A DNA stretch of 21,581 nt from a virus: the IMG/VR virus record IMGVR_UViG_3300031612_000089, positions 1 through 21,581 of that record. One strand, given 5' to 3'. Below are positions 3,455 to 14,126 of this stretch, piece by piece. Under the pieces are notes generated by a model, which saw nothing but the letters and a program-made list of their open reading frames with translations, was not told where the DNA came from and did not search any database. Position 1 is the first letter of the stretch. The number at the start of each line of letters is the position of its first letter. The translations under genes and the position numbers were made by a program.

Positions 3455-4984
3455 ATGAAATATATGGATAAGTTCAAACAAATTTTTAGCGGATTAACAA
3501 TAGCATATGGACAATACCAACCCGGTGACAGAGGAGAGAATGGTAGTAAACAAAAAGGCAAAGCCTTTATTGTTCGTAAAAACGTCACCGACGAACTTTG
3601 GACCAATCATCTTAACGGAGAAGGACCCGCCCTTGGGATTATCCCTATCACAGAAAATAATGATTGTAGGTGGGGGTGCGTTGATATTGACGAATATGAC
3701 CTTGATCACACTAGCCTCATTAAAAGTATTCGGAGTCTTAAACTCCCTTTAGTATTGTGCAGATCTAAGTCTGGCGGAGCACACGTCTTTTTATTTACCA
3801 AAGAAAATATTCCTGCATCTTTGATGCAATCTAAATTAAAAAAAATATCAAAAGTTTTAGGATACGATGGATCAGAAATCTTTCCTAAACAAACAGAGAT
3901 ACTAGTGGAGCGTGGTGACACTGGAAATTTCTTAAACTTACCTTACCACAATCAAATGAAAGGACTACGTTATGCTATCAACGATATTGGCGCCAGTTGT
4001 ACACTTGAGGAATTTTATAAGCTCTATGATGTTTACAGTCGCACGAGGAAAGAAGTCGAAGAAATTAAAATCGAAGAAGAAAAAATAACAGAAACATTTC
4101 CTGGAGGACCCCCTTGCTTAAATAAATTAGCATCAATTGGTTTTGGTGAGGGTTCCAGAAACAATGCATTATTTAATGTAGCAGTATACTACAAACAATC
4201 ATCGCCAGATACATGGGAAGATGAGATTGTAAAAGCAAACATGGAACATATGAATCCACCACTTAGTAATAGTGAGGTTCAACAATTAATTAAATCAGTA
4301 AACAGAAAAGGTTATGACAAGTATAGATGTAAAGATGCACCTATCAATGCAGTATGTCAATCTGGTTTATGTAGAACAAAAAGATTTGGTGTAGGATTTG
4401 GTGAGGAAGAGATGCCAGTACTTGGAAGTCTTACAAAATATACATCAACGCCTCCGCAATGGTTTTTAAATGTAGATAAGACTAGAGTAGAATTAAAAAC
4501 AGAACAATTATATAGCCCACCTTTGTTTGCATTAGCATGCTTAGACCAAGCTAATTTAATAGTACCAGTACCTAAACCTAAGGATTGGAAACAACATTTT
4601 TTAAAACCTATGATGCAAAACTTACAAGAGGTAGAACCTCTTGAGTCTTTAAATCCTACTAATGAAATTACAGGACTATTGCAAGATTGGACAACTAACA
4701 GACAGTCAGCAAGAACTATGGACGATGTTCTTAACAAACTTCCTTACACAGAAGAGGGTTTTACTTATTTTAGAATGGAAGATTTTTATTCATTTCTTAA
4801 AAAAAATAACTGGGACATGGATAAGGTCAAAACTGGTAACTTAATAAAAAGATTAGAAGATATCTTTGTAGAAGAAACAAGATTAAGAATTAAACAACAA
4901 CAGCCTAGAGTTGTTAAAATTAAAACTATGAAAAAAATAGAAGCTGCGGTTTCTAAAGTGGAGTATCAACAAGATGACTTTTAA
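3455..4984 (+). CDS. Archaeo-eukaryotic-type (AEP) DNA primase
   Basis: A 509-residue primase. The N-terminal catalytic domain shows the metal-binding DID motif (D77, D79 in CVDIDEYD), the RSKSGGAHVFLF motif (103-114), EIFPKQ (141-146) and GNFLNLPYH (157-165), typical of phage primase-polymerases of the AEP superfamily. Residues about 215-310 form a helical domain (GFGEGSRNNALFNVAVY) bracketed by cysteines C221, C292, C301 and C306, a pattern like the primase C-terminal metal or Fe-S cluster domain. The rest is a C-terminal extension of unknown role. No helicase domain is fused; separate SNF2 and UvrD-like helicases are encoded nearby. The start at 3455 follows AAAGAAAG; M4 (3464) is an alternative. 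Confidence 0.85.
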   Translation: MKYMDKFKQIFSGLTIAYGQYQPGDRGENGSKQKGKAFIVRKNVTDELWTNHLNGEGPALGIIPITENNDCRWGCVDIDEYDLDHTSLIKSIRSLKLPLVLCRSKSGGAHVFLFTKENIPASLMQSKLKKISKVLGYDGSEIFPKQTEILVERGDTGNFLNLPYHNQMKGLRYAINDIGASCTLEEFYKLYDVYSRTRKEVEEIKIEEEKITETFPGGPPCLNKLASIGFGEGSRNNALFNVAVYYKQSSPDTWEDEIVKANMEHMNPPLSNSEVQQLIKSVNRKGYDKYRCKDAPINAVCQSGLCRTKRFGVGFGEEEMPVLGSLTKYTSTPPQWFLNVDKTRVELKTEQLYSPPLFALACLDQANLIVPVPKPKDWKQHFLKPMMQNLQEVEPLESLNPTNEITGLLQDWTTNRQSARTMDDVLNKLPYTEEGFTYFRMEDFYSFLKKNNWDMDKVKTGNLIKRLEDIFVEETRLRIKQQQPRVVKIKTMKKIEAAVSKVEYQQDDF

Positions 4985-5183
4985 AATAGGAATTAATTGG
5001 CATCTTAGATTTAGAGAAGAAATAGCTCAGTTAAAAGAAGAACTAGAGCTCACTCAAATGTGGCTAAACAAAGCAGAAAGGAAGTTAAAAAAATATGAAA
5101 ACAATAATATTAGGCCCACCGGGAACGGGAAAAACAACAACGTTATTAAACTTAGTGGACGAGTTCATCCAACAGGGGATTAG
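4974..5183 (+). CDS. Small coiled-coil protein overlapping primase and helicase
   Basis: A 69-codon frame whose ATG lies inside the last codons of the primase and whose end overlaps the first 89 nt of the helicase gene. Residues about 13-43 (RFREEIAQLKEELELTQMW...) have strong heptad character and predict a coiled coil. GGAG is 9 nt before the ATG. Without this gene a 110-nt gap would sit inside an otherwise tightly packed operon, which favours reality. The tail overlapping the helicase start is asparagine-rich and of low quality. Function unknown. Confidence 0.55.
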   Translation: MTFKIGINWHLRFREEIAQLKEELELTQMWLNKAERKLKKYENNNIRPTGNGKNNNVIKLSGRVHPTGD

Positions 5184-6603
5184 ACCTCGACAAATTGGGT
5201 ACTTTTCGTTTACTAAAAAAGCAGCAACAGAGGCGGCTGACCGTGCTGCGGAGAAATTTGGACTAGATAAAGAAAACGATTTACCTTTTTTCAGGACTTT
5301 ACATTCATACGCTTTTAATCAATTAGGTATGACTAAGGAAAAAATGATGAAGATAGAAGACTATAAAGAATTTGGGCAGAAATGTGGCATACCTATTAAG
5401 ACGGCTAAGTACTCAGCGGAAGATGGTACATTTAATTCTGACAATGAATACCTTACAATTATAAACACAGCCGCAGTTAAGAGAATGGATCTACTAGAAT
5501 ACTATGACTCTAGAAAAAATATTATAGACATAGAACGAAACACATTATTTTTATTAGCAGAAGAATTACACAGATTTAAAAAAGAAAAAAACTTAAAAGA
5601 TTTTAATGATCTGATTGAAGATTTTATTAAAAAAGAAACTCTTAATAAGTTTGAAGTATTATTTATAGATGAAGCACAGGACTTATCTTTACTACAATGG
5701 GAAATGGTTAGAAAGATTTGGTCAAAAGCAGAGAAAACTTACATAGCAGGTGATGATGACCAAGCTATATTTAAATGGGCCGGTGCAGATGTAGATCACT
5801 TCATAGCATTAAAAGAAGAAGTAAATGATATTAAAGTATTGGATCAATCTTATAGAATTCCGGGTGGACCTATACATGAATTGTCTCAAAATATTATAAA
5901 CAAAGTACAAAATAGATTTGAAAAAAAATATAAACCTAGAGATGAAATAGGATTATTAAAAAGATATTCTGATATAACACAGGTAGATATGAGTGCTGGC
6001 AACTGGCTAGTGTTATCTTCTGCAAACTATTTTCTAGATGATGCCAAAGACTTATGTGAGATTCAAGGATGGTATTATCAATATAAAGGTATGAATTCCG
6101 TACCATTAAAACTATTGCTTGCATTAAATAACTGGGAGTCATGGCGTAAAGGTGAGTTTTTAAATCACTTAGAGATTAAAAACATCTATCAATATTTAGG
6201 ATCTAATGTTTTAGTAGGGTTTCAGAAGGGTAAAACTTTGCATTCGGACGCGAAGTATACACTAAAGGAATGCCAAGAACAACATGGATTATTAAAATCT
6301 GACGTTTGGTTTAAATCATTTGAAGGTTTAGATCCAATGACGGAAACTTACATTCGTAACATGAGGGCGAATGGTGAGATGATAAATAAAAATCCTCGTA
6401 TTAAAATGTCAACCATACACGCAGCAAAAGGAGGAGAAGCCGACAACGTTTTATTATTACAGGACCTAACAGGTGCCGCACTAGAAACTTTTAGTCATGA
6501 CCCAGATGAATTACATAGATTATTTTATACTGGCGCGACGAGAGCGAAGCGTGAATTGCATTTACTAGATCCTAAAAACTTTGATCGAGCTTATATAATA
6601 TGA
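5095..6603 (+). CDS. UvrD/Dda-like superfamily 1 DNA helicase
   Basis: A 502-residue SF1 helicase. In order: Walker A GPPGTGKTTT (7-16); motif Ia FSFTKKAATEA; motif II FIDEAQDLS; motif III GDDDQAIFKWAGA; motif IV-like LDQSYRIP; motif V STIHAAKGGEADNVLLL; motif VI YTGATRAKRELHLL. This is the full UvrD/Rep/Dda set, so ATP-driven 3'-5' or 5'-3' unwinding at the phage replication fork is expected; the sequence does not settle polarity. An AGGAAG ribosome binding site precedes the ATG at 5095, and its end overlaps the next start (ATGA), so it is co-translated within the replication operon. Confidence 0.93.
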   Translation: MKTIILGPPGTGKTTTLLNLVDEFIQQGIRPRQIGYFSFTKKAATEAADRAAEKFGLDKENDLPFFRTLHSYAFNQLGMTKEKMMKIEDYKEFGQKCGIPIKTAKYSAEDGTFNSDNEYLTIINTAAVKRMDLLEYYDSRKNIIDIERNTLFLLAEELHRFKKEKNLKDFNDLIEDFIKKETLNKFEVLFIDEAQDLSLLQWEMVRKIWSKAEKTYIAGDDDQAIFKWAGADVDHFIALKEEVNDIKVLDQSYRIPGGPIHELSQNIINKVQNRFEKKYKPRDEIGLLKRYSDITQVDMSAGNWLVLSSANYFLDDAKDLCEIQGWYYQYKGMNSVPLKLLLALNNWESWRKGEFLNHLEIKNIYQYLGSNVLVGFQKGKTLHSDAKYTLKECQEQHGLLKSDVWFKSFEGLDPMTETYIRNMRANGEMINKNPRIKMSTIHAAKGGEADNVLLLQDLTGAALETFSHDPDELHRLFYTGATRAKRELHLLDPKNFDRAYII

Positions 6604-6872: not shown

Positions 6873-8731
6873 GAAGAACCCAAATGCCTTTGTTTGCACC
6901 CGAAACTGAATGGGTTGCACCAGAAGAATTAAAAGATTTATCAGGTTATAAAGAAGTTGCTATTGATTTAGAAACTTATGACCCTTATCTAATAACTCAG
7001 GGCTCAGGTAGTGTTGTCGGAAAAGGACACATTGCAGGCGTTGCGGTGGCCGTAGAGGGCTGGTCTGGCTATTATCCGATTGGACATGAGGGTGGTGGTA
7101 ATATGGACAGAAAACTCGTATTACAATGGGTTCAAGATTTAGTTAATCAAGAGAAAACTACATTTATATTTCACAATGCTATGTATGATGTTTGCTGGTT
7201 AAGAGCGGCAGGTATTAAAATTAGAGGTAAGATAGTTGACACTATGATTGCGGCATCTTTAATTGATGAGAACAGAATGTCGTATGCATTAAATACTTTA
7301 GCTAAATTTTATGTTGGCCTAGGTAAAGATGAGAAAGTATTACAAGAAGCGGCTAAGAGTTATGATCTTAATCCTAAGGCAGATATGTGGAAGTTACCTG
7401 CAATGTATGTAGGAGAATATGCTGAACGTGATGCTGAAGCTACCTTAAAACTTTGGCAAAGATTAAGTATAGAACTACATAACCAAGAACTTATGGATGT
7501 ATTTAATTTGGAAACTAAATTGTTTCCTTGTTTAGTTGATATGAGATTCAAAGGTGTAAGAGTTGACATTGAACATGCAGCTAATCTAAAGAAAAAATTA
7601 ATAGTAAGAGAGAACAAAATTCTTAGTAAAATCAAAGAGTTAACAGGTATAGACGTAGAGATACATGCGGCTCGTAGTATAGCAAAAGCATTTGACAAAT
7701 TAAAACTACCATATGATAGAACAGAAAAAAGTAATGAGCCTAGCTTTACTAAAAACTTTTTACAAAACCATCCACATGAATTAGCTAGATCTATTGCAGA
7801 CGCAAGAGAGATTAACAAAGCACATACAACTTTTATAGATTCTATTACCAAGCATTCTTCTAACGGTAGAATCCATGCAGACATAAATCAAATACGATCA
7901 GACCAGGGAGGAACTGTTACAGGTAGATTCTCTATGAGTAATCCAAACTTACAGCAGATTCCAGCGAGGCATCCGGAGATTGGACCGATGATTAGATCTA
8001 TATTTATTCCAGAAGAAAAAACAACATGGGGATCGTTTGATTACTCACAACAAGAACCTAGAATTTTAGTACACTATGCTAAGTTACAAAACTTAGATGG
8101 CGTTGATGAAATTGTTAATGCCTATAACGCAGGTGATGCAGATTTCCACCAGGTAGTAGCAGACATGGCAGGCATAGAACGTAAGCAAGCCAAAACTATT
8201 AACCTTGGACTTATGTATGGTATGGGTAAAAATAAATTAATGTCAGAACTAGGTTTACAAAAAGAATCAGCTGAAAAATTAATTAGACAGTATCATGCCA
8301 AGGCTCCGTTTGTTAAAAAATTAATGGACAATGTAACTCGTAAGGCAGAAAACAGAGGTAAGATTAGAACTTTAGGAGGTAGAGCGTGTCATTTTGATCT
8401 ATGGCAACCTACTCAGTTTGGTATATTTAGACCATTACCTTTAGAACAAGCAAGAAAAGAATATGATGAGCCTTTAAAACGTGCATTTACTTACAAAGCA
8501 TTAAACAAATTAATACAAGGATCGGCAGCAGACATGACAAAGAAAAGTATGGTAGCATTGTATGAAAATGGTATAGTACCGCACATACAAATTCATGATG
8601 AGGTTGATATCTCTGTTGAATCTGATGCACAGGCCGAACAAATAATTGAAATAATGGAGTCAGCTGTAGAATTAAAAGTACCAAATAAAGTTGACTACGA
8701 ATCAGGTGCTAATTGGGGTGAAATTAAATAA
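6869..8731 (+). CDS. Family A DNA polymerase with 3'-5' exonuclease
   Basis: A 620-residue replicative DNA polymerase. The 3'-5' proofreading domain has Exo I (AIDLETYD, D33/E35), Exo II (FHNAMYDVCWL) and Exo III (YAERDAEATLKLW), so it looks active. The polymerase domain has motif A (DYSQQEPRIL, D391), motif B (RKQAKTINLGLMYGMG) and motif C (QIHDEVD, H576/D577/E578). There is no 5'-3' exonuclease domain, as usual for phage enzymes. The residue equivalent to E. coli F762 is Leu446. In marine phages this position separates F, Y and L lineages; leucine has been linked to temperate or slow-replicating phages. The start overlaps DUF3310 by ATGA and the stop overlaps the next start (TAATG). Confidence 0.96.
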   Translation: MRRTQMPLFAPETEWVAPEELKDLSGYKEVAIDLETYDPYLITQGSGSVVGKGHIAGVAVAVEGWSGYYPIGHEGGGNMDRKLVLQWVQDLVNQEKTTFIFHNAMYDVCWLRAAGIKIRGKIVDTMIAASLIDENRMSYALNTLAKFYVGLGKDEKVLQEAAKSYDLNPKADMWKLPAMYVGEYAERDAEATLKLWQRLSIELHNQELMDVFNLETKLFPCLVDMRFKGVRVDIEHAANLKKKLIVRENKILSKIKELTGIDVEIHAARSIAKAFDKLKLPYDRTEKSNEPSFTKNFLQNHPHELARSIADAREINKAHTTFIDSITKHSSNGRIHADINQIRSDQGGTVTGRFSMSNPNLQQIPARHPEIGPMIRSIFIPEEKTTWGSFDYSQQEPRILVHYAKLQNLDGVDEIVNAYNAGDADFHQVVADMAGIERKQAKTINLGLMYGMGKNKLMSELGLQKESAEKLIRQYHAKAPFVKKLMDNVTRKAENRGKIRTLGGRACHFDLWQPTQFGIFRPLPLEQARKEYDEPLKRAFTYKALNKLIQGSAADMTKKSMVALYENGIVPHIQIHDEVDISVESDAQAEQIIEIMESAVELKVPNKVDYESGANWGEIK

Positions 8732-9375
8732 TGGCTTATCTTAATGCAAACATACCCACAACTTATGCACAAATACGAAGGGAGTATTTATATGACTGTA
8801 AAAAACATCACGGAGAAGTTCAAGACTGTATTATCTTTGGCATTACCAGTATGGGTGGCAGGGCAATACTATTCCATGCTCTTATGGAGAACGGCGCAAT
8901 ATTCTATCGCCTGCCTATTAGCGCATTTATTCAACGTGGCTACGAAGTCAAAGATGTACCAATCAGACGATTGGATGAATTGGAGCTTTGGAATTCTTTT
9001 AGCTATCATCCTGCTGTTACTAGTTGGGCTATTTTAAGCGCGGCTTCGGGAAAATATATTGGTAAAGATAAGAAGTGGCACCATGGTGCATATCTTTTTA
9101 CTGTTGACTGGGCTCACCCAGATGCTAATATACTAGATACTGATCATTCAGAGATCCCACACGAACATAAGTGTGCACACATCATGGCTTTAGATGATGG
9201 AAATTATGCGGCTCAACCTAACAATAGATGTATATGGGACTTGCCTTCTTTTACTATTAAAAACGATATTCCAGATTGGAAAGTACAAAACAATGAATGG
9301 AATGTAGAGGACACTGGAGCGTGGAAGACTGAAGACACCGACAATTTCTTTTATGAAATCGAGGAAAAAAAATGA
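8731..9375 (+). CDS. Conserved hypothetical protein behind the polymerase
   Basis: A 214-residue soluble protein starting at the polymerase stop (TAATG overlap). It is rich in W, H and D, especially in the segment WHHGAYLFTVDWAHPDANIL and the following HSEIPHEHKCAHIMALDDGNYA. The C-terminal 50 residues are acidic and W/N-rich and probably flexible. Histidine clusters could bind metal, but I cannot match them to a known enzyme. Coupling to the polymerase suggests a replication-stage protein. Function unknown. Confidence 0.8.
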   Translation: MAYLNANIPTTYAQIRREYLYDCKKHHGEVQDCIIFGITSMGGRAILFHALMENGAIFYRLPISAFIQRGYEVKDVPIRRLDELELWNSFSYHPAVTSWAILSAASGKYIGKDKKWHHGAYLFTVDWAHPDANILDTDHSEIPHEHKCAHIMALDDGNYAAQPNNRCIWDLPSFTIKNDIPDWKVQNNEWNVEDTGAWKTEDTDNFFYEIEEKK

Positions 9376-11618: not shown

Positions 11619-11792
11619 ATGGCTGATCCAGCAAAATTTAAGTCCGTATCGGTATCGATAGCGACTTATAAAATATTAAGATATCTTGGCGATGGTAAAA
11701 TTACTGACGCTGATTTAACTGTGAGTAAAACAATAGAAAGTTTAGCAAAGAAAGAAAGTAAGAAACATGGCTATAAAAACGGAAAAGCATAA
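11619..11792 (+). CDS. Putative ribbon-helix-helix regulator
   Basis: A 57-codon gene. The segment KSVSVSIATYKILRYL followed by a turn and LTVSKTIESLAKKESKK resembles the beta-strand, helix, helix layout of ribbon-helix-helix DNA-binding proteins (short N-terminal strand with alternating S/V, then helix A and helix B). RHH proteins act as dimers on short repeated operators and often repress their own promoter. A TTCCCATAT box sits at the -10 of its promoter, making autoregulation plausible. AGAAGAGAAAA precedes the ATG. The match is by pattern only; a structure prediction would decide. Confidence 0.55.
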   Translation: MADPAKFKSVSVSIATYKILRYLGDGKITDADLTVSKTIESLAKKESKKHGYKNGKA

Positions 11793-11910
11793 AACTATTT
11801 GTCCTCAATGTAAGGGCAATGGCTACGTAAGGGCTGTAATTGAAGAAGGTAGAGAAGAGATTATAGCTGATTGTAATAAGTGTGATAACCAAGGAGAGAT
11901 AAATGACTGA
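11767..11910 (+). CDS. DnaJ-type zinc-finger peptide (47 aa)
   Basis: Overlaps the upstream gene by 26 nt and the SET-domain gene by 8 nt. The sequence has ICPQCKGNGY and, about 20 residues later, DCNKCDNQGEI: one CxxCxGxG repeat and one degenerate CxxCxxxG repeat, which together form a single zinc-binding unit like that of DnaJ and related small proteins. A DnaJ-type finger without a J domain cannot be a full co-chaperone; it probably binds a protein or nucleic acid through zinc. Confidence 0.7.
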   Translation: MAIKTEKHKTICPQCKGNGYVRAVIEEGREEIIADCNKCDNQGEIND

Positions 11911-12340
11911 ACAAAACGACGAACATTTTGAAGTTATAAGTGAAAACAAAGCTAGAGAGTTCGAGAAGAAACAAACCTACAAACCATTACCTGATAGTTT
12001 ATTTATTGAAGAAAGTTTAATAGATGGCCAAGGATTATTTGCTAGCATAGACATAGCGGAAAATACTGATCTAGGTATTTCTCACATAGAAGTAGAAAAA
12101 AATAAAATGGCACCACTAGAAATGATTAGAACTCCATTAGGTGGTTTTATTAATCATGAGAAAACTATAAAAGAACCTAACAACGAAGGTAAAGATATAG
12201 AAGTGTCTGGTCCTAATTGTAAAAGAATAAAAGGTCGTATGGATGGTTGTGTGATTGGTTATAGTTTGATTACTAGACGAGATATTAAGGCCGGTGAGGA
12301 GCTTACATTAGAATATAGTATGTATGTACCTGTCAAATGA
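11903..12340 (+). CDS. SET-domain protein (putative lysine methyltransferase)
   Basis: A 145-residue protein consisting mainly of a SET domain. Visible landmarks: DGQGLFASIDI (41-51), the glycine loop that binds S-adenosylmethionine; GGFINHEKT (80-88), equivalent to the NH motif; SGPNCKR (102-108); and IKAGEELTLEYSMY (128-141), the GEELxxxY motif holding the catalytic tyrosine. All core SET motifs are present in order, so an active protein lysine methyltransferase is plausible. There are no pre-SET or post-SET cysteine clusters. The target is unknown; a host or phage protein is possible. It starts 8 nt before the DnaJ-type peptide stop, with AAGGAGAG upstream, and overlaps the next gene by ATGA. 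Confidence 0.85.
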   Translation: MTEQNDEHFEVISENKAREFEKKQTYKPLPDSLFIEESLIDGQGLFASIDIAENTDLGISHIEVEKNKMAPLEMIRTPLGGFINHEKTIKEPNNEGKDIEVSGPNCKRIKGRMDGCVIGYSLITRRDIKAGEELTLEYSMYVPVK

Positions 12341-12447
12341 TTGAGAAAGAATTAACACGTTTAGCTTTGTATTGGCATAGTTTGTGGTTAAAAGAAAATG
12401 GTTATCCGGGTTGGAAAAAATGTATGGAGGATAGTCATGTCAAGTAA
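12337..12447 (+). CDS. Small hypothetical protein (36 aa)
   Basis: Starts in ATGA overlap with the SET-domain gene and ends 11 nt inside the next gene. MIEKELTRLALYWHSLWLKE continues to a WKKCMEDSHVK end. It is W-rich and amphipathic, with one cysteine and no zinc motif. Overlaps on both sides support expression. Function unknown; it may partner the SET protein, but only position suggests this. Confidence 0.55.
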   Translation: MIEKELTRLALYWHSLWLKENGYPGWKKCMEDSHVK

Positions 12448-12607
12448 AGATGACCGAGGACCGCTGGATTTAGAGAGACGTATAGAAGAGCAAGACAAAT
12501 ATATTTCTGAAATTAAAAAAGACAATTTATTTATGGCAAAAGAAGTAGATCGTTTAAATGAGTATGTACAGGAAATGGAATTACTTGAAATATCTAGGAA
12601 ACTATGA
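12437..12607 (+). CDS. Small coiled-coil protein (56 aa)
   Basis: Chosen start ATG at 12437 follows an excellent GGAGG at 8 nt. The product begins MSSKDDRGPLDLERRIEEQD and continues as one charged helix (YISEIKKDNLFMAKEVDRLNEY is heptad-like), so it should form a coiled-coil oligomer. Similar short SlyX-like helical proteins are common in phages; no function can be assigned. It overlaps the next gene by ATGA. Confidence 0.62.
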   Translation: MSSKDDRGPLDLERRIEEQDKYISEIKKDNLFMAKEVDRLNEYVQEMELLEISRKL

Positions 12608-12765
12608 AAAAAGAAAAGTGGGATGGAAAGTCTAGACCCAGTACGAACAAGTATAGGGATAACTATGATTTAATTTTTGGTCAAAAAGAAATTAAAGAAT
12701 TAGATGAGTCGTTAAAACAATCAATAAGAAACAAAAAAGAAAGGAAGAGAAATAATGATAAATAA
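12604..12765 (+). CDS. Small charged hypothetical protein (53 aa)
   Basis: Begins in ATGA overlap with the coiled-coil gene and ends 11 nt inside the HNH gene. It is highly charged (MKKEKWDGKSRPSTNKYRDN, ending IRNKKERKRNNDK), likely to be helical in the second half and nucleic-acid binding by charge. Its lysine/arginine-rich end also encodes the AAGGAAGAG ribosome binding site for the HNH gene. No known family. Confidence 0.58.
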   Translation: MKKEKWDGKSRPSTNKYRDNYDLIFGQKEIKELDESLKQSIRNKKERKRNNDK

Positions 12766-13450
12766 AGAAGATATTTTAAAGAATATAAATCCTAAAGAAG
12801 GAGTAGATTTATCTACAGTTATACATACTCATAAAATTAAACCTAATCAATATTTTATGTTTAAAACAGGTGGACCACATTTTTTTAATAGATGTAAAAA
12901 TAAAGATGTAGTAGACCCTAAATACTTAGATCTTTCTTGGCCTTTTATTTATAATGTTAAAGGTGTAAAAAATAAAATAATTACAGGGAGTATTTCTAAA
13001 GTTAAAGCTTCTCTTGGATATATTGGTTGTAGGCTTCAGCACGCTGATGAAATGAGAGAAACACAAGATTTTAGAACTCCGGGAAAAGAAAAGTTTAAAA
13101 AAGTTATTAAAGAATATGAATTTCTTATGCATAGATTGGTGGGATTAGCTTTTATACCTAATGATAATGTAGATAAAACAATAGTAGATCATGTAGATGG
13201 TGTTCGTTGTGATTATAAAATAGAAAATTTAAGATGGGCTACATATAAACAAAACTCTAGAGGATCTGCTGGACAAACACCGGATCCAGATGCAGTTTAT
13301 GAAATAGTAAATCAAACACTTTGGTTTCATGGTAAAATGAATGATTATGTTGGAGGAAAACAATTATATAATAAAAACAAAGAAGAAGCGGTAAAACAAT
13401 TAAGTTTTTTAGAAAAATTTGAAAAGGAGTTACAAAGTGAAACACAATAA
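12755..13450 (+). CDS. HNH endonuclease (homing-type)
   Basis: A 231-residue protein with a C-terminal-half HNH module: HRLVGLAFIPN (126-136), VDHVDGVRCDY (144-154) carrying the D/H metal ligands, and NLRWATYKQNSRG (158-170), the usual end of HNH_3/NUMOD-type nucleases. The first 110 residues are lysine- and F/Y-rich and are presumably the DNA-recognition part. Free-standing HNH enzymes spread as homing elements or act in packaging. It overlaps the exonuclease start by 14 nt with no sign of interrupting it, so it may be a domesticated or recently inserted gene. It is more AT-rich than its neighbours. Confidence 0.85.
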   Translation: MINKEDILKNINPKEGVDLSTVIHTHKIKPNQYFMFKTGGPHFFNRCKNKDVVDPKYLDLSWPFIYNVKGVKNKIITGSISKVKASLGYIGCRLQHADEMRETQDFRTPGKEKFKKVIKEYEFLMHRLVGLAFIPNDNVDKTIVDHVDGVRCDYKIENLRWATYKQNSRGSAGQTPDPDAVYEIVNQTLWFHGKMNDYVGGKQLYNKNKEEAVKQLSFLEKFEKELQSETQ

Positions 13451-14126
13451 TTGCTTTGTCTATCCGAAGACAGTAAGAGAAGCCATCGAAGGTAAACGTC
13501 ATTACGTAGCCGGTAAAGAAAAGTTACCAAGTGTGACGACTATTTTATCTGGCACACAAGATCCTAGTAAGACTGCTAGTTTGCAGGCTTGGCGCGAACG
13601 CGTCGGCGAATCCACTGCGTTGATGATAACTGAGGAAGCAGCATCACGTGGTACTGCTATGCATAAAATTCTTGAACGTTATGTAGATGAGTCTGGTTAT
13701 TTAGATATGACTCAAGTTGGACAACAAGCCCATAACATGGCTATAAGAATAATAGAGCAAGGTCTATGTAATGTTACAGAATATTACGGAATCGAATGTA
13801 CACTATTCTATCCCGGTCTATACGCAGGCCAGACTGATATGGTTGGAGTACACAAGGGCCAAGATGCTATCATCGACTTTAAGCAAACGAACAAACCGAA
13901 GCGCGAAGAGTGGATCGGGGATTACAAAATGCAGTTGGCGGCATATGCTATGGCACATGACTATATGCATAAGACACAAATAACTAAGGGTGTAATTATG
14001 ATGTGTTCTAAAGATAATTACTATCAGGAGTTTGTAATAGAAGGCGAAGAGTTTAAAAAATGTAAACATAAATGGTTAGGAAAGGTGAGTGACTACTATG
14101 AACAAAGAACAAATAATGAACGATAG
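13437..14126 (+). CDS. PD-(D/E)XK exonuclease (RecB/Cas4-like)
   Basis: A 229-residue nuclease of the PD-(D/E)XK superfamily. Features in order: LPSVTTIL near residue 30; ASRGTAMHKILERY (69-82) with the RG...H helix; GQTDMVG (131-137) with catalytic D134; AIIDFKQTNK (144-153) with D147 and K149; and YKMQLAAYAMA (163-173), the QxxxY motif. This is the motif set of RecB/Cas4 and phage exonucleases used in recombination and DNA processing. The start is GTG at 13437, with AGGAG 8 nt upstream. A frame open to TTG at 13419 would place that ribosome binding site inside the gene, so it is rejected. There are no clear Cas4 Fe-S cysteines. Confidence 0.88.
   Translation: MKHNNCFVYPKTVREAIEGKRHYVAGKEKLPSVTTILSGTQDPSKTASLQAWRERVGESTALMITEEAASRGTAMHKILERYVDESGYLDMTQVGQQAHNMAIRIIEQGLCNVTEYYGIECTLFYPGLYAGQTDMVGVHKGQDAIIDFKQTNKPKREEWIGDYKMQLAAYAMAHDYMHKTQITKGVIMMCSKDNYYQEFVIEGEEFKKCKHKWLGKVSDYYEQRTNNER

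Follow-up and report, generated by a model that had tools for sequence, protein, structure and literature searches.

Why would a bacterial virus encode a SET-domain protein? SET enzymes are best known, and have been studied, as histone methylases, and bacteria have no H3 tails. We addressed this question for a 21,581-base stretch of DNA, a single IMG/VR virus record referred to here as the window, for which an initial annotation had proposed a SET lysine methyltransferase in a phage of a probable marine bacterium.

The SET gene and its phage

The gene and the sequence elements on which its assignment rests are the following:

11903..12340, + strand: SET-domain protein, 145 aa (ORF, Pfam PF00856, AlphaFold2, Foldseek)
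11892..11897, + strand: Shine-Dalgarno-like AGGAGA, 5 nt before the SET start (sequence)
12026..12034, + strand: GQG, residues 42-44, GxG motif of the SAM loop (alignment of 65 relatives)
12128..12157, + strand: RTPLGGFINH at residues 76-85, the core of the signature that marks the family (alignments)
12212..12220, + strand: PNC at residues 104-106, which completes the NHSxxPNC motif (pairs with the KMT2D/MLL4 PNC)
12293..12316, + strand: GEELTLEY at residues 131-138; Tyr138 is the expected catalytic residue (alignment of 65 relatives)

The reading frame opens with ATG and encodes the four motifs that had been noted, GQGLFA (residues 42-47), GGFINH (80-85), GPNC (103-106) and GEELTLEY (131-138). 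Their order is as claimed, with the qualification that NHSxxPNC, usually contiguous, is here split by an insert. The Pfam SET model PF00856 matched the window protein at E=6e-5 and 23.9 bits, above its curated cut-off of 22.4, and matched 65 of 65 relatives at E<=0.01 (best 3e-14), while PHROG 28741, to which no function is assigned, matched at E=6.6e-20. A single-sequence phmmer search of the PDB with the window protein alone gave no match; family profiles did match, recovering KMT2D (1.9e-12), vSET (1n3j; 7e-8) and LegAS4 (1e-5), and in the KMT2D alignment the NH, PNC and GEEL..Y of the family pair with the matching KMT2D elements. Sixteen columns are invariant in the alignment of 65 relatives, among them G44, N84, N105, E133 and Y138, the last of which pairs with residue 105 of vSET; G42 is conserved in at least 90%. 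Because RTPLGGF served as a search pattern, its invariance is inflated, and strict invariance was rejected as partly an artefact, given that pattern-free profile matches yield R[TL][PS][LM]G[GA]FINH. The zinc-ligand Cys cluster is absent from the sequence of the window protein.

Structure prediction also agreed with the initial annotation. AlphaFold2 modelled the window protein with pLDDT 84 and a relative without the insert with pLDDT 91 and pTM 0.80. In Foldseek searches, the first-ranked solved structure for the uninserted relative was vSET (3kma; TM 0.71/0.69), and the window protein fell among the SET domains of SETD8, vSET and MLL, with vSET at rank 10; identity to vSET in the structural alignments was 17-24%. 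For both models, the best solved structures listed are proven or putative lysine methyltransferases of the SET type. The window protein is thus predicted to adopt the SET fold. Compared with a homologue at 88% identity, the gene has dN 0.066 and dS 0.836 (dN/dS ~0.08), that is, synonymous change per site is about twelve-fold above protein change, and in the SET core and C-terminal part dN/dS is ~0.07. The gene is under strong purifying selection. We conclude that positions 11903-12340 encode a genuine SET protein and that chance resemblance is ruled out.

The host could be narrowed further than a marine bacterium. The window PolA is 84% identical to that of phage 023Pt_psg01, 55.6% to that of Pelagibacter phage HTVC027P and 54.4% to that of HTVC023P, and the terminase large subunit (TerL) is 76% identical to that of HTVC027P. 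HTVC023P-type pelagiphages, which are viruses of SAR11, are delimited by a PolA at least 45% similar to cultured members (PMC9599517), and the window PolA lies above this threshold. Thus, the PolA and TerL identities place the window virus among the HTVC023P-type pelagiphages, with SAR11 as its predicted host. Complete members of the group are ~59 kb, so the record is a fragment; it contains no tRNA genes. HTVC027P and 023Pt_psg01 share with the window a common lineage and the gene order polA ... exonuclease ... terminase but, unlike the window, have no SET gene in their genomes, and the main text of the paper on this phage group names neither a SET domain nor a methyltransferase (PMC9599517). 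Elsewhere in the window, positions 8731-9375 encode a 214-aa protein that matched a PHROG labelled ferredoxin (1.8e-71), and related phages have at this position a gene named phosphoribosylaminoimidazole synthetase; the protein has no Pfam match, and both names are therefore doubtful.

Neighbours and distribution of the SET gene

In the window, the SET gene lies among replication and nuclease genes, in a slot of variable content. Its neighbours are:

11767..11910, + strand: DnaJ-type zinc peptide, 47 aa, upstream of SET with an 8-nt overlap (Pfam)
12398..12607, + strand: 69-aa protein, function not assigned, downstream of SET (neighbour clustering)
12755..13450, + strand: HNH endonuclease, edge of the variable slot (Pfam HNH_3, E=6.7e-9)
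13419..14126, + strand: PD-(D/E)XK exonuclease, a conserved gene marking the right-hand side of the slot (PHROG 298, E=3e-49; order kept in relatives)

The slot holds the zinc peptide, SET, two small proteins and the HNH gene in the window, compared with the zinc peptide, a 52-aa protein and the HNH gene, without SET, in 023Pt_psg01, the nearest sequenced relative. In HTVC027P its occupants are a leader protein and, after it, a class-I methyltransferase (Methyltransf_24; L149:6234-6821). Since the contents of the slot vary between such close relatives, the SET gene is accessory cargo. The initial annotation had described an overlapping cluster with the zinc peptide, which is real, and had suggested this peptide, which carries two CxxCxGxG-like motifs (DnaJ_CXXCXGXG, E=3e-6, below the cut-off), as a possible cofactor. 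The latter suggestion is weakened, because 023Pt_psg01 retains the peptide without SET, which indicates that the peptide is independent of SET, and because most relatives of the SET protein have other neighbours; the peptide is best regarded as a neighbour and at most a putative partner. Relatives of the 69-aa protein lie directly 3' of SET in 13 loci of the phage lineage of the window.

The phage-encoded SET protein is not an isolated oddity. It belongs to a family of compact proteins of ~100 aa with at least 581 relatives in IMG/VR, as detected by a pattern scan. Among 50,697 annotated phage records, clear relatives are found in only four distinct phages, namely Pelagibacter phage Kolga, cyanophages P-RSM6 and P-SSM7, and marine virus AG-345-P14, three of them labelled 'hypothetical protein' and one in a record without annotation. 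These members of PHROG 28741 are 39-44% identical to the window protein over ~80% of its length, but they are ~100 aa long, begin at Y(K/R)(P/A)LP, lack the leader and have a contiguous NHSxxPNC.

Bacterial members are sparse. They occur in 10 of the 200 genomes sampled from one flavobacterial family and in 5 of 98 genomes of a Porticoccaceae sample (seed genomes included in both counts), and in 1 of 53 genomes of a SAR11 family sample, the seed G009 with its chromosomal copy, the other 52 having none; the organism labels of single-cell and metagenome assemblies behind such counts may be wrong. In Porticoccaceae-type gammaproteobacteria, a chromosomal SET lies between fabB and a peroxiredoxin-like gene, ssb, an MFS gene and uvrA (L115:3655-10291 and syntenic loci), a gene order conserved in ~7 loci. 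Flavobacterial SET genes lie within argG-argC-SET-proC-argD-argF-argB (L118 and L122, ~4650-5300; L121:3768-4043), with a 4-nt overlap between SET and proC in L118 and L122; a link to the arginine operon as a general function was rejected, as it is confined to these three related loci. In the SAR11-family single-cell genome AG-900-M14, a chromosomal SET lies between ccm/NUDIX and dapF-ftsY-ffh (L117:4998-5279). This copy groups with cyanophage SETs, which suggests exchange of the gene between phage and host.

The split NHSxxPNC motif and the N-terminal leader

Two features of the window protein are unusual:

12158..12208, + strand: clade-specific insert, residues 86-102, inside NHSxxPNC, modelled as a beta-hairpin (alignment, AlphaFold2)
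11903..11974, + strand: N-terminal leader, residues 1-24 (MTEQNDEHFEVISENKAREFEKKQ), a shuffled module of SAR11 phages (sequence comparison)

Nearly all relatives, including the sister protein L014, have a contiguous NHSxxPNC. In the window clade, the motif reads NHE or NHQ, then ~14-20 residues, then GPNC, the Ser of NHS being changed to Glu or Gln; in the window protein itself, N84-H85 and P104-N105-C106 are present, without the Ser and separated by the insert. Across the inserted clade, N84, H85, P104, N105, C106, E133 and Y138 are all retained. The beta-hairpin is modelled by AlphaFold2 with fairly high confidence, and the insert is less constrained than the SET core in the dN/dS comparison. 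In the SET family tree, which was built from few columns and in which most deeper forks are unsettled, the inserted proteins lie on one side of a single (starred) branch and form a supported set (96) with L014. This grouping indicates that the insert is derived, and it appears to have arisen once. The split motif, together with the replacement of Ser, could alter activity.

The leader, of ~24 residues with the consensus M[AT]EL.[ED][EA]HF[EH][VL]I..N[KR]AR, also occurs apart from SET (L149:6064-6137; L151:4001-4072; L152:1501-1572; L155:1501-1572). When phage records were searched with a leader protein, all 9 records recovered belonged to Pelagibacter phages, each with a single matching place, several of the matches being individually weak (E 0.1-2). 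The proteins that it opens include a T7-type exonuclease (HTVC011P, Gjalp and Eyrgjafa), an HNH nuclease (HTVC112P) and proteins of 53-57 aa (HTVC027P, HTVC111P and HTVC202P). An architecture-neutral DNA scan of IMG/VR placed it before SET in 17 loci and also before HNH proteins, small proteins of two kinds and at least four other short tails, counts that are not frequencies, as several leader loci were found by leader-based patterns; a second DNA pattern, for the exonuclease-type leader, gave no match. Long phage contigs carry at most one copy each, and in the SET-bearing contigs tested that copy belongs to the SET gene. Change between leader pairs is mainly synonymous, with dS far above dN in most pairs. 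Thus, constraint on the leader acts at the protein level, and the possibility of an RNA element was rejected on the same grounds.

The leader is therefore a separate module that is shuffled among unrelated proteins in SAR11 phages, each phage having one copy. It might be a docking tag fused to differing effectors (here a SET methylase, elsewhere a T7-type exonuclease, an HNH nuclease or a small protein), with a single such fusion in each phage and with every effector sent to one shared SAR11 or phage partner, in which case it would here aim a lysine methylase at the complex of that partner; we consider this explanation unlikely. Being common to unrelated enzymes, the leader offers a concrete handle for finding a shared target.

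Probable function of the SET protein

The window protein is probably a compact, SAM-dependent SET methyltransferase of an HTVC023P-type SAR11 phage, an accessory enzyme most likely directed at protein lysines that modifies a host or phage protein. With the core residues all kept, selection strong and the closest structures methylating protein lysines, an active protein-lysine methyltransferase is the simplest reading and a plausible one. Catalysis, lysine as the acceptor, and the roles of the leader and the insert are inferred. The SET core (residues 26-141) would bind SAM via its GxG, NH and GEEL..Y region, and the substrate lysine would enter a narrow channel ending at Tyr138, to be methylated there. 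The hairpin insert and the N-terminal leader may help in selecting or retaining the substrate. This would be a protein of the host or of the phage, probably modified during infection to the advantage of the phage.

A close parallel is vSET (PBCV-1 A612L), the H3K27 methyltransferase of an algal virus. Both are minimal viral SET proteins without pre- or post-SET regions, but the host of the window phage is a bacterium without H3, and, of the two, the window protein is the one with the insert and the leader. Go1-SET, LegAS4-type proteins and BurB, the last of which acts on methionine (PMC12542666), have the SET fold and core motifs in common with the window protein but belong to other subfamilies. 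vSET trimethylates H3K27 (PMC7019647), and the methylation target of archaeal Go1-SET is MC1-alpha, a DNA-binding protein (PMC3980110). Both precedents, one viral and one archaeal, modify proteins bound to DNA, so the substrate might reasonably be sought among nucleoid, transcription and replication proteins. Against a protein-lysine methyltransferase, no substrate candidate emerged from the analysis, and neighbours vary across the family, so that genomic context gives no pathway. A defence or anti-defence annotation was rejected, as PADLOC returned no match.

On the side of chemistry, the main alternative is that the protein methylates a small molecule, as BurB does, with free methionine or another amino acid as the acceptor, and that its gene serves as an auxiliary metabolic gene. 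BurB is itself a SET enzyme and S-methylates free methionine (PMC12542666), the three flavobacterial loci hold a family member in an arginine operon with SET overlapping proC, and a small pocket of fixed shape could be built from R.PLG.FINH, which is strongly conserved. However, the other chromosomal copies lie beside fabB/ssb or ccm and ftsY genes, which makes the arginine context local, and no metabolic gene adjoins SET in the window. The best solved structures are protein methyltransferases, and BurB was missing from the best 50 Foldseek structures for both the window protein and the uninserted relative, so we regard this alternative as improbable.

A catalytically inactive SET domain kept as a binding protein, which the insert and leader would have made into an adaptor, seems less probable again. 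The loss of the NHS Ser and the insertion of 14-20 residues, both peculiar to the window clade, are what such a protein might display, but the retention of all seven core residues in that clade and the low dN/dS of the SET core and C-terminal part argue for an enzyme. The lowest probability, by a small step, goes to an enzyme acting solely on phage proteins of the virion or of replication, for example to protect or regulate them, and not on the host. Consistent with such a restriction, the family is found across SAR11 and Prochlorococcus phages, SET lies among replication genes in the window lineage, and in Kolga and its relatives it is directly 3' of a gene annotated as an AAA protein; yet no conserved phage partner gene adjoins SET across the family, and chromosomal copies exist in bacteria. 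The preferred reading remains a protein-lysine methyltransferase with a host or phage substrate.

Given a mostly unnamed family on more than 580 marine viral contigs, lysine methylation may be used by phages while they infect ocean bacteria that are very abundant. Methyl-proteomics of infected cells is feasible, as cultures exist of SAR11 and Prochlorococcus hosts and of several of the phages. The fold was already known. As an annotation, SET in phages is not new either, since UniProt gives the name 'SET domain containing protein' to other phage proteins, more distant from the family. In the open-access literature, outside which most subscription journals lie, we found no functional study or discussion of the phage SET family. 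A distant SET forms the C-terminus of a 276-aa protein of Pseudoalteromonas phage PH1 (L018:3473-4300); the N-terminal part of this protein has no Pfam match, and its gene lies near a putative TerL gene.
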